Shown here one piece after another: positions 30,984 through 34,960 of a stretch of DNA of 64,000 nucleotides (positions are counted from its first letter, which is position 1; each line of letters begins with the position of its first letter). The position numbers were made by a program, and so were the translations under genes. Source of the stretch: Elusimicrobiota bacterium (GTDB lineage: Bacteria > Elusimicrobiota > Elusimicrobia > F11); contig JAJVIP010000009.1 of NCBI GenBank assembly GCA_022072025.1, positions 124,001 to 188,000 on the forward strand, written 5' to 3'. The notes beneath the pieces are model-generated. The model did no database searches. It was not told where the DNA came from and saw nothing but the letters and a program-made list of their open reading frames with translations.

Positions 30984-32834
30984 ATGACAGATAAAAACAA
31001 AGAAAAAAAATGGAAGTGGGTTCCGGCGGTCATTCTGTTGACGTTCATGGGCCTATGCCTCTCGTCGCTCCGTTTTGAATCCTCATCTTCTCAGTTCAAT
31101 ACATCGGATTTCGCGCGATTGCCGGTGTTGCACGGAGGGAGACTCAAACCGCTTGACTCGGTGGCTCGAACCTCTTTGATGATCCTTTCAGGAAAACAAA
31201 CGCTTCGTCATGAAGGGCGTCGTTTGCCTGCCACTCTCTGGCTTATGGAGATGTTGTTTCGGCCTGCGGTGGCCGATGGCATGGCGGTTTTCCAAATCAA
31301 TGACCCCGATGTGTTGGGTCTCATGAAAATCGAGCAAACAAAAAATCGTTTCTATTCCTTTCAAGTCTTGTTGCCTCATCTGGAATCGATTGAGGCTCAG
31401 GCCGCTCAAGCGGAGGAACTTAAACCCGAGGTTCGGTCGCGTTATCAGCGCGCGGTTGTGAATTTAAACAATCAAATGACGCTCTATCAGCGGATTCAAA
31501 ATTCACTTCAAGTCAGTGGAGAAGATCATTTGTTGGAAAGTTTGCAGCATTTTGAAACCGTGCTCATTCCTATGATTGAGGCCCATCTTAAACAACCCAA
31601 GATGAATCCTGAAGAGATGAGAGTCCTAGCAGAACACTTAAGGCGCTATCAATTTGTGGACCGAGTCGCGAATTTTTATCCGATTCCCAGCCGAATCGAA
31701 CAAAGGGGGACCGATGGTTGGGTGAGCATGGGGCGGGGGGTCATGGACCGGCGTCTGATGGCCACGTTTCATCCGGCGGTCCTGTCATATTCCGCCATGG
31801 CAGACGCTGCGCGGGCCCAAGAGGCGGGGGTGTTTAACCGCTCGCTGGCGCGGTATCAAGATTGGCTTGAGAAATCAGCTCCGGAACTAAGGTCCAAAAT
31901 GAACCATGAACTTCTTTTTAACAATTCACAGCCTTTCTATTTGTGTTTGCTCATGTACGCGACGGTTTTTTTGTTGACCTTTCTTTCTTGGCTGCTCTGG
32001 CCTCAAACCTTAAACCGGGCGGCCTTTTGGCTTTTGTTGTTTTCGTTGGGAGTTCATACGGTGGGTTTGGTGTCGCGCATGATGCTTCAGGGGCGGCCCC
32101 CGGTCACGAACCTATATTCTTCCGCGGTGTTTGTGGGATGGATGGCGGTTCTGTTGGGCGCGGGATTGGAATGGTATTTCCGCAAAGGCATTGGAAGCGC
32201 GGTTTCTTCGGTTATTGGTTTTGTCACGTTGATTATCGCGCACCACTTGGCGGCTCAAGGCGATACGTTGGAGATGATGCGCGCGGTCTTAGACTCCAAC
32301 TTTTGGTTGGCGACTCATGTGGTGGCGATCACGGTGGGTTACAGTTCCACGTTTTTGTCCGGAGCCTTGGCCATTCTTTATATTTTGCGGGAGCGGTTTG
32401 ATCCAAGGTGGAATCAATCGGCGGCGTTGACCCTTGAAAAAATGGTCTATGGCGTGGTTTGTTTTAATGTGTTTTTTAGTTTTGTGGGAACGGTTCTGGG
32501 CGGCATTTGGGCTGATCAATCTTGGGGGCGGTTCTGGGGGTGGGACCCCAAAGAAAACGGGGCGCTCATGATTGTGCTTTGGAACGCCGCTATTCTCCAC
32601 GCCCGGTGGGGCGGTTTTGCCAAACAGCGCGGTATTATGGCTTTGGCGATTTTGGGAAATGTGGTGACCGCCTTGTCTTGGTTCGGCGTCAACATGTTGG
32701 GCATTGGCCTCCACTCGTATGGGTTTATGGAGAAAGCTTTCTGGTGGATTTTGGTCTTTTCACTGAGCCAATTTGCTTTGGTGGCGCTGGCCTATTGGCC
32801 AAAACAAGGAATCGTTAGAAAAACAAAGATGTAA
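30984..32834 (+). CDS. ccsA: CcsA/ResC cytochrome c biogenesis protein with large N-domain
   Basis: A 616-residue membrane protein. The first ~310 residues hold one helix and a periplasmic domain (P-V-L-H-G-G-R-L-K-P-L-D-S-V-A-R-T is a recurring feature of long CcsA/ResC proteins in diderms); the rest is the multi-helix CcsA core. The WWD haem-handling motif is present as W-G-R-F-W-G-W-D-P-K-E, with conserved His in the neighbouring helices (A-T-H-V-V-A-I, H-S-Y-G-F). It partners with ResB upstream. A GTG at 30942 lies inside the family A repeat and is rejected. The gene end overlaps the DUF2063 gene on the opposite strand by 20 bases. Confidence 0.9.
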   Translation: MTDKNKEKKWKWVPAVILLTFMGLCLSSLRFESSSSQFNTSDFARLPVLHGGRLKPLDSVARTSLMILSGKQTLRHEGRRLPATLWLMEMLFRPAVADGMAVFQINDPDVLGLMKIEQTKNRFYSFQVLLPHLESIEAQAAQAEELKPEVRSRYQRAVVNLNNQMTLYQRIQNSLQVSGEDHLLESLQHFETVLIPMIEAHLKQPKMNPEEMRVLAEHLRRYQFVDRVANFYPIPSRIEQRGTDGWVSMGRGVMDRRLMATFHPAVLSYSAMADAARAQEAGVFNRSLARYQDWLEKSAPELRSKMNHELLFNNSQPFYLCLLMYATVFLLTFLSWLLWPQTLNRAAFWLLLFSLGVHTVGLVSRMMLQGRPPVTNLYSSAVFVGWMAVLLGAGLEWYFRKGIGSAVSSVIGFVTLIIAHHLAAQGDTLEMMRAVLDSNFWLATHVVAITVGYSSTFLSGALAILYILRERFDPRWNQSAALTLEKMVYGVVCFNVFFSFVGTVLGGIWADQSWGRFWGWDPKENGALMIVLWNAAILHARWGGFAKQRGIMALAILGNVVTALSWFGVNMLGIGLHSYGFMEKAFWWILVFSLSQFALVALAYWPKQGIVRKTKM

Positions 32835-33816
32835 TGACTCCGTTTTCGGACCATTCCTGAAACCATGCGTTGATATCGGATTCCCTGAGGCGTTCTTTCT
32901 GTTTTCTCAATAACCCGAATAATTCAGTTAAACGGCCATTACCGTCTATCAACCGTGAATATTTTAGTGCCGTCATCCCGGCATTCTTTCTGGCCGGGAT
33001 CCAGGTTTTTACTGACGGGAAAACCTGGGCCCCGGCCAAAAGATCGCCGGGGCGACGATTTAACTGAATCATTCCGGATAATATATCCAAGGCTTTTCCA
33101 AGCGGTCGCCCCGAATGAAGAAGCGATAAAAAAGAAAATTGAATGCGCGAGAGTCGACTGATGCGGACCTGTTTGTCGGGCAGGCGGTAGATGACCACGT
33201 GGCTTGTTCCTCTTCTGATTTTCTTGATTTGTTGTCGATTGATTTTTCCATCCCGCCGCCAAAGATCATCCACCGGCCAGGAGAGTTTCAGGAGTTTTAC
33301 TGAGGGATCAAACCTTAATTTTAGTTGAGGCCATTTTTGTTTGGGAATTTTATTGAGCAAAGAAGTATTTAAGGGGGGAGTGTCGTCCGCGAAAAAGGAT
33401 TGATGCGCGGCCCATTCCACCTTGGCCAATTCAGCCACAAAAGGGAATTTTTTGTTCAAAGGAGTTTGGGAGAGAAAGTGGGAAAATTTGTGGCCCACAT
33501 CATCGATACTTTTAAAGGTCGATGGATAACAGATGAGATATTTTCGCGCCCAATCATTGAATGGTCTGGTCCCCACGATATTTTTGACGGAACTATAGTT
33601 GGCCTCCAAGGCGTCGACGATTCTCGCGAAGTAAGCGTTTCCGTAAATGGACAAGCGGGTTTCACGGTTGACCGTCGGTGTTTCTCCAATGACTTGAAGG
33701 CAATGTTGAAGCGGATGCTGTTGTTTGAGAGCGGCGGTGACCCCGCGCGGATGGGTGAGCACCCATCTCATCCATTTCTGCAGGTCAGACAAGGGCGGAT
33801 GGCTGGTGGCGGGCAT
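32815..33816 (-). CDS. DUF2063 (BufC/HvfC-like) partner of the MNIO enzyme, with in-frame repeat
   Basis: A 333-residue protein. The N-terminal DUF2063 domain (about 8-110) begins L-S-D-L-Q-K-W-M-R-W-V-L and has N-R-E-T-R-L-S-I-Y-G-N-A-Y-F-A-R, the family's N-x-x-x-x-x-L-x-x-x-Y-P core; a second alpha/beta domain (about 120-250) follows. In bufferin/HvfABC operons this protein assists the MNIO enzyme, probably by binding the precursor peptide. Its start overlaps the end of the MNIO gene by 32 bases. Residues 254-282 are encoded exactly by a family A repeat (32971-33057), placed between the P-L-G-K-A-L helix and the last W-F-Q-E-W helix of the domain. The frame stays open, so the protein is probably made with an extra loop; impaired function cannot be excluded. 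Confidence 0.85.
   Translation of the reverse strand: MPATSHPPLSDLQKWMRWVLTHPRGVTAALKQQHPLQHCLQVIGETPTVNRETRLSIYGNAYFARIVDALEANYSSVKNIVGTRPFNDWARKYLICYPSTFKSIDDVGHKFSHFLSQTPLNKKFPFVAELAKVEWAAHQSFFADDTPPLNTSLLNKIPKQKWPQLKLRFDPSVKLLKLSWPVDDLWRRDGKINRQQIKKIRRGTSHVVIYRLPDKQVRISRLSRIQFSFLSLLHSGRPLGKALDILSGMIQLNRRPGDLLAGAQVFPSVKTWIPARKNAGMTALKYSRLIDGNGRLTELFGLLRKQKERLRESDINAWFQEWSENGVITSLFF
32971..33057. repeat. Family A repeat lying in frame inside the DUF2063 gene
   Basis: Ends CGTCATCCCGGC (32971-32982) and GCCGGGGCGACG (33046-33057); inner arms GGCCGGGATCCAGGTTTT and AAAACCTGGGCCCCGGCC. The unit is 87 bp, exactly 29 codons, and its first base is the first base of codon 254 of the minus-strand gene. 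The encoded peptide starts R-R-P-G-D-L-L-A-G-A-Q and ends A-G-M-T. Confidence 0.88.
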
Positions 33817-34636
33817 CGGTGAGAATCTTTCTTTGAATTTTTTCGGCGTGTTTGGCTTCTTTCCAGAGGCGTTCGAAGGGAGGAATATTGTCATCCCATT
33901 CAATGAGCGTCGGAACGCCCCCAAAACGGGCCACCGCTTTCTCATAAAGCCTCCATACGGGATTTGACACGGGATGGTCATGCGTGTCGATCAAGTGCGT
34001 TCCTTGGTCTGAATAACCGGCCAGGTGGAATTGGGCCACGCGGTTTTTTGGCACGCCATTAATGAAGTCTTCGCCTTTAAAATTGTGGTTCACGGCGCTG
34101 ACATGAATGTTGTTCACGTCCAACAAGATCAAGCAGTCCGCGCGCGTGGAGACTTCTGTCAGACATTCCCATTCCGTCATTTCAGAATGGGCGTAGGTCA
34201 CATAGCTGGACACATTTTCCAAAAGAATTTTCCGACCCAAAAAATCTTGAACTTGTTGGATTCGCTCGACCAAGTGATGGATGGTTTCTTGTGTGTAAGG
34301 AAGAGGCAACAAGTCGTGGAGGTTATGGTTTTCAACACCTGTCCAGCAGAGATGATCGGATATCCACAGGGGGTCAATGCGGCTGGCCAGGTTTTTTAAT
34401 TTTTTCAAATAGGATTTATCAATCGGATCTTTTGATCCAATGGAAAGCGACACGCCGTGCATGACGAGCGGGTAATCCCGGCGAAGGTCTTCGAGGATTT
34501 TTATCCCCCGACCTCCGGAACCCGCCGAGGTGCCCATATAGTTCTCAGATATGACCTCGAACCAGGGCACCTTCGGCCGGCGCTCCAAAATGTGGGGGTA
34601 ATGAACGGCCCGAAGGCCCAGTCCCACACCCAGCAT
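33785..34636 (-). CDS. DUF692 multinuclear non-haem iron oxidase (MNIO; BufB/HvfB-like)
   Basis: A 283-residue TIM-barrel enzyme of the DUF692/MNIO family, which uses two or three iron ions to oxidatively modify cysteines (and other residues) in ribosomal peptides. Metal-ligand motifs appear in order: H-G-V-S-L-S-I-G (H60), S-D-H-L-C-W (D94, H95), L-E-N-V-S-S-Y (E140), L-L-D-V-N-N-I-H-V-S (D173, N176, H178), N-H (H184), F-H-L-A-G-Y (H204), D-T-H-D-H-P-V (D217, H219) and I-E-W-D-D-N (E246). Length is standard. It starts 12 bases after the Cys-rich precursor gene and overlaps the DUF2063 gene, giving the order precursor-enzyme-partner. The neighbouring Cys-rich peptide is the obvious substrate. 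Confidence 0.93.
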   Translation of the reverse strand: MLGVGLGLRAVHYPHILERRPKVPWFEVISENYMGTSAGSGGRGIKILEDLRRDYPLVMHGVSLSIGSKDPIDKSYLKKLKNLASRIDPLWISDHLCWTGVENHNLHDLLPLPYTQETIHHLVERIQQVQDFLGRKILLENVSSYVTYAHSEMTEWECLTEVSTRADCLILLDVNNIHVSAVNHNFKGEDFINGVPKNRVAQFHLAGYSDQGTHLIDTHDHPVSNPVWRLYEKAVARFGGVPTLIEWDDNIPPFERLWKEAKHAEKIQRKILTDARHQPSALV

Positions 34637-34648
34637 GGCGAGCCTGTC

Positions 34649-34960
34649 CTACATGTTACATCCGCCTTGGCCTTTGCATTCATTGTGGCCTTTACAGGCA
34701 TGTTTATCTGTCTTGCATCCGCCTTTTCCTTTGCACTCGTTCATGCCTTTGCAGCCATGGTGCTCTTTTTTCATTTCTTTGGTTTGTTGTTTCTCTTTTT
34801 TCTGGGCGCGTTTCATTTTTTTCTTTTCGGCCCGTGTTTCAACTTTTTGTTTGGGGGCTTCTGTGGTGCTGGGTTCCTCGGCGCGGAGCGGGGTGTTGAC
34901 GAAGGTCAGCCCCATCAAGCCTGCCATGGCGGCGGTGATCAACTTGTTCATCTTTTTCAT
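34649..34960 (-). CDS. Cys-rich bufferin-like RiPP precursor
   Basis: A 103-residue exported peptide. Residues 1-27 are a Sec signal (M-N-K-L-I-T-A-A-M-A-G, cleavage after L-R-A). Residues 28-68 are a very charged Lys/Glu spacer, probably helical. The C-terminus holds two copies of C-K-G-x-N-E-C-K-G-x-G-G-C with cysteines at 70, 76, 82, 89, 95 and 101 (spacing 6-6-7-6-6) and His67, 68, 87 and 92. Position directly before an MNIO and a DUF2063 gene marks it as a modified, metal-binding peptide of the bufferin/HvfA kind, exported to the periplasm; copper is the known ligand for bufferins. AAGAGGAG precedes ATG 34960. A longer frame from 35017 has no ribosome-binding site and would hide the signal peptide. 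Confidence 0.85.
   Translation of the reverse strand: MKKMNKLITAAMAGLMGLTFVNTPLRAEEPSTTEAPKQKVETRAEKKKMKRAQKKEKQQTKEMKKEHHGCKGMNECKGKGGCKTDKHACKGHNECKGQGGCNM

Follow-up and report, generated by a model that had tools for sequence, protein, structure and literature searches.

A probable bufferin operon with a BufA2-like, Cys-Lys-rich precursor in an Elusimicrobiota genome

In the characterised relatives of the system described here, a complex of an MNIO enzyme and its partner converts Cys to 5-thiooxazole (loss of 4 H, 4 Da each) and the products bind copper, as set out in PMC12668002 and PMC12452194. According to the latter, Buf2 precursors contain 6 or 12 Cys (Buf_6/12Cys); it also puts forward a role for the signal peptide in recognition. 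For the Cys-Lys captophorin group, PMC12668002 lists NACKG and HNDCK among the 5-mers tested, in another system, reports that NACKG-type 5-mers are not processed by FonBC, an enzyme of another group, and attributes to Cys-Lys MNIOs an Asp at the FonB-Phe250 site together with loss of the second leader-site Arg. In HvfB, N175, D242 and H244 are essential (PMC13419390). No published structure of any Buf2 product was found in the available portions of the literature on these peptides, and a literature search for this family in Acidobacteriota and Verrucomicrobiota turned up community surveys only.

The window, the whole stretch of 64,000 nucleotides that was analysed, carries three genes on the minus strand, encoding a precursor, then an MNIO (DUF692) and then a DUF2063 partner. 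The gap between the precursor stop and the MNIO gene is 12 bases and the MNIO and DUF2063 genes overlap by 32 bases, an arrangement already given in the preliminary description, with which the coordinates agree to the base. GAGGAG stands immediately 5' of the precursor ATG (34960). The genome as a whole encodes a single MNIO and a single BufA2-like precursor, and no DoxX gene or obvious metal gene was found adjoining the operon. The features are:

34649..34960, minus strand: precursor gene (bufA2-like), 103 aa, ATG 34960, stop 34649 (NCBIfam BufA2 match; alignment with 30 homologues)
34880..34960, minus strand: putative Sec signal peptide, aa 1-27, cleavage site placed by reading (sequence)
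34910..34933, minus strand: conserved leader stretch A-A-x-A-G-L-x-x-G, aa 10-17, AAMAGLMG (alignment)
34754..34879, minus strand: highly charged linker, aa 28-69 (composition)
34715..34753, minus strand: Cys triplet 1, CKGMNECKGKGGC, aa 70-82 (pattern search)
34658..34696, minus strand: Cys triplet 2, CKGHNECKGQGGC, aa 89-101 (pattern search)
33785..34636, minus strand: MNIO (DUF692), BufB-type, 283 aa (NCBIfam BufB, Pfam PF05114, conserved residues)
32815..33816, minus strand: DUF2063 and RRE partner (BufC/PME-type 1), 333 aa, ATG 33816, stop 32815 (Pfam DUF2063; structure model)
32911..33080, no strand assigned: 170-bp dispersed genomic repeat in the partner gene, in frame (genome search; homologue comparison)

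The precursor opens with a putative Sec-type signal peptide, MKKMNKLITAAMAGLMGLTFVNTPLRA, recognised by reading, and continues with a 42-residue linker containing 52% K/R/E/D, compared with a median of 22% in homologous linkers, in keeping with the signal peptide and highly charged spacer described before. The translation also bore out the two copies of C-K-G-x-N-E-C-K-G-x-G-G-C, with Cys at 70, 76, 82, 89, 95 and 101 and a spacing of 6-6-7-6-6. A degenerate DNA pattern for CKGxNxCKGxGGC (GGC-type) matched twice in the window, both times in the precursor gene, and not once in 100 dinucleotide-preserving shuffles; the triplets are thus not a product of chance. The precursor matched the NCBIfam BufA2 model NF050166 (E=3.5e-10) with 39.9 bits, which is below the curated equivalog cut-off of 60 bits, and the model is matched by 30 of the 31 aligned precursors (the window peptide and 30 homologues). 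Five of the six Cys, encoded upstream of the MNIO, are in register with canonical BufA2, and C-K-G occurs four times, with MNIO and DUF2063 downstream. The leader contains the AAxAGLxxG stretch common to BufA2-like precursors of many phyla, in which A11 and G14 are invariant in 31 sequences; this conservation fits the published idea that the signal peptide has a part in recognition. The canonical BufA2 tail, GQGW...C, is absent from the window precursor, which terminates in GQGGCNM. It contains no EGKCG motif, supporting the earlier claim that it is distinct from the EGKCG/HvfA type, and has no Pfam match to DUF2282. The AlphaFold model of the precursor has a pLDDT of 57 and is uninformative.

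The MNIO passes the equivalog cut-off of NCBIfam BufB (NF050167; 377.8 bits, cut-off 310) and scores 365.6 bits with Pfam PF05114 (MbnB_TglH_ChrH). Its candidate metal or catalytic sites, H60, D94, H95, E140, D173, N175, H204, D217, H219, E246 and D248, are kept across homologues, with Glu at the D94 position in a few of them, and the likely equivalents of HvfB N175, D242 and H244 are retained. D249 in EWDDNIP, the Asp after the catalytic Asp, is at the FonB-Phe250 site; of 88 GGC-type enzymes, 58 have Asp there. The second leader-site Arg is missing from the window MNIO.

The preliminary description had taken C-K-G-x-N-E-C-K-G to define a new precursor class and had called for a search for the motif beside MNIO genes. 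Scanning GTDB genomes with the DNA pattern yielded at least 120 stretches; the matches listed come mostly from Acidobacteriota, Verrucomicrobiota and Planctomycetota, with further ones in Melainabacteria, Myxococcota, Pseudomonadota, Fibrobacterota and a Chlamydiae MAG. Among these listed matches, the 6-6-7-6-6 spacing is seen in 104 of the 118 precursors kept, and duplication has brought many of them to 12 Cys or more. Loci of other genomes, most from other phyla, were testable when the sequence beyond the precursor extended for at least 1.1 kb; of the 98 such loci among the listed matches, 84 have an MNIO gene as the next one downstream on the same strand, generally followed in turn by a DUF2063 gene. 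No match was obtained in viral contigs. A precursor search of plasmids returned 16 records; those examined are canonical BufA2, with no GGC-type precursor among them, and on two Pseudomonas plasmids copper-resistance or heavy-metal genes flank the BufA2-type operons. The scan upheld the association with MNIO genes, which together with the BufA2 match makes the peptide very probably an MNIO substrate, as had been proposed. The new class did not survive: the motif is widespread and matches both NCBIfam BufA2 and the Cys-Lys captophorin group, so that it is largely a catalogued bufferin subclass already. Among variants of the BufA2 core, the 6-6-7-6-6 layout is a common one, and the window peptide is BufA2-like by sequence and fits the published Cys-Lys captophorin/Buf2 group. 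Both four-triplet precursors scanned pass the BufA2 cut-off, but the shorter GGC-type versions give 37-53 bits and fall below it; the window peptide would therefore go unnamed, as probably do the other two-triplet members of the group under the current annotation threshold.

The survey also returned loci of other kinds. Some GGC-type precursor genes have no MNIO in the examined stretch (L018, L020, L063, L064, L065, L086, L088, L097), and their products are possibly modified by an enzyme encoded elsewhere. Twin-arginine-like leaders such as MERREFTKVMGAVVAG, found in several GGC-type precursors (L017:4144-4557, L092:732-1130, L088:1159-1392), suggest Tat rather than Sec export. In the Chlamydiae MAG a hybrid precursor (L113:3731-4129) combines a GGC-type first triplet with a second one whose GKGGW...C ending resembles that of canonical BufA2; the MNIO there is encoded on the other strand. 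Large proteins with one CKGSN[ET]CKGEGGC triplet near the C-terminus (L026:1305-3182, L106:6328-7998, L052:27-677), of which that of Mucilaginibacter phyllosphaerae has 626 aa and a Pfam Ferritin-like match (PF12902), could be whole-protein MNIO substrates; in L026 and L052, MNIO and DUF2063 genes follow directly. The Legionella rubrilucens match (L050:5134-5385) is a different peptide, in which Cys recurs at intervals of three residues (CKGCNGCKGC...), and it has no MNIO in its vicinity.

By analogy with the characterised relatives, we consider it highly likely that this is a bufferin operon of the BufA2/Cys-Lys captophorin kind, in which the MNIO and its partner would oxidise Cys to 5-thiooxazoles and the exported peptide would chelate copper. 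The MNIO and the DUF2063-RRE partner would bind the precursor leader in the cytoplasm and some of the Cys would be oxidised, most likely the middle one of each triplet, which stands in N-x-C-K-G; the modified peptide would then be exported, chelate copper and buffer excess metal. Among the matches listed in the homologue survey, the middle Cys is followed by K in 300 of 309 triplets and has N two residues before it in 289 of 309, whereas the first Cys is more variable (K next in 237 of 309). Since the middle Cys has the most constant context, Cys 76 and Cys 95 are predicted to be the primary modification targets. Chemistry, export route, metal and physiological role are all drawn from the relatives, and a metal-binding product, as suggested earlier, is plausible, with copper the plausible metal by the same analogy. 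Because the precursor is below the cut-off and lacks the GW...C tail, findings on BufA2 may not hold for it in every detail.

The enzyme was placed in an IQ-TREE phylogeny of 61 MNIOs, which included the window enzyme, 11 from its own class and 39 other GGC-type enzymes. The window MNIO is sister to the 11 own-class enzymes, which go with canonical BufA2 precursors (the 12 together are supported at 100/99), and the other 39 GGC-type enzymes group apart (89/83). A single clade of all GGC-type enzymes including that of the window was rejected by an AU test (p=0.027) of a grouping chosen after a first tree, with canonical BufA2 from outside the window's class sampled from plasmids only. Of 341 genomes from the phylum, 14 contain a BufA2-like gene, and among the genes examined only that of the window is GGC-type; the canonical BufA2 of its class has the consensus CYGVNxCKGxxxCGGPGHxCAGxNSCKGQGW...C. 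The window is thus an outlier in a lineage otherwise with canonical BufA2, and the explanation is either remodelling of the core within the lineage or exchange of the precursor. We tentatively entertain the possibility that tandem CKGxNxCKGxGGC triplets act as independent units for modification and metal binding, evolve through duplication and can be accepted by enzymes from the canonical BufA2 lineage; on that view, the precursor in the window would be a substrate that was reshaped or brought in while the enzyme lineage stayed the same, its sixth Cys having moved, and the partner would tolerate insertion of a mobile repeat. Two genomes of the window's class (L164, L165) have distant MNIOs (~32% identity) near longer proteins with Cys/Gly-rich tails, which resemble the TIGR04222-type putative substrates in PMC12452194.

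The partner matches Pfam DUF2063 (PF09836) with 53.8 bits and NCBIfam HvfC with 60.1 bits, below the cut-off of 142. A sequence search against the PDB gave no real match; a fold search with the model (pLDDT 82.8) matched TglI (8hi7_A) and NGO1945 (3dee). It has 333 aa, compared with about 250-260 aa for PME-type 1 proteins, because a 170-bp repeat (32911-33080) adds ~56 aa; the length would be about 277 aa without the inserted segment. The repeat lies in frame and without stops in the RRE-encoding part of bufC. It has TA at both ends, imperfect inverted terminal repeats of 22 nt and a palindromic core, GTCATCCCGGC...GCCGGGATCC. Searching the genome with it gives 60 matches, full or partial and counting the query, with the best other copy at 98% identity. 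The segment is absent from the aligned partner homologues that reach this region. Several other genomic copies are also open in one frame. The element recalls the Rickettsia palindromic elements, which insert within genes. In the model, a confident DUF2063-RRE fold is present on both sides of the insertion and residues 259-309 form a disordered loop, which suggests that the insertion apparently leaves the partner unbroken and that its function is probably retained.

A repeat striking the RRE-encoding part of bufC could also mean that the operon is decaying and the precursor no longer modified. The open reading frame kept through the insertion, the fold retained on either side of it, and the intact precursor and enzyme make this quite improbable. 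We also regard it as unlikely that the same operon handles mainly another metal or stress (mercury, gold, zinc, oxidative) or that the modification is something other than 5-thiooxazole. In favour of this reading, the operon has no copper gene beside it, and PMC12452194 records bufferin domains fused to MerC and identifies the gig (gold-induced) operons as bufferin clusters; against it, the characterised Buf1 is copper-protective. An unmodified basic protein of acid-shock-like or metallothionein-like kind, lying beside an MNIO by chance, is very improbable indeed; the NCBIfam Asr match that would favour it (20.9 bits, cut-off 50) is probably driven by K/E-rich sequence, is far weaker than the BufA2 match and is given by the window peptide alone of the 31 precursors, and adjacency to MNIO is conserved across phyla. 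Taken together, the data indicate that the operon is real, of bufferin type and probably functional, and that its precursor does not form a new class. The operon adds to a large, mostly uncharacterised group of copper-handling peptides, and what makes it of interest is that enzyme and precursor disagree in lineage and that a repeat has inserted in frame; the mismatch of enzyme lineage and precursor layout is a natural test of whether the enzyme recognises leader or core.

Compared with BufA2/Buf2 (NF050166), the operon has the same gene order, A-B-C, and an enzyme in the BufB equivalog, and the precursor shares six Cys, the first five spaced 6-6-7-6, N-x-C-K-G at Cys 2 and 5, and the AAxAGLxxG leader. 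It differs in that the sixth Cys is 6 residues past the fifth (GQGGC) and not about 13 (GQGW...C), in having CKG at Cys 1 and 4 where BufA2 has CYG/CAG, and in scoring below the curated cut-off. With the Cys-Lys captophorins (PMC12668002) it shares multiple Cys-Lys motifs, the Asp at the FonB-Phe250 site and a PME1 partner; the published NACKG and HNDCK 5-mers fit the window triplets, and the sequence features compared revealed no difference. The HvfA/oxazolin, EGKCG (Lys-Cys) captophorins likewise have a secreted Cys-rich precursor, an MNIO and a DUF2063 partner, but there the Lys precedes the Cys, whereas it follows the Cys in the window peptide, and the enzyme selectivity residues are others. 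Buf1 (DUF2282) bufferins share the operon plan and probably also the chemistry, but they have a four-Cys layout and a separate enzyme branch, and the window precursor is set apart from them by the lack of a DUF2282 match.
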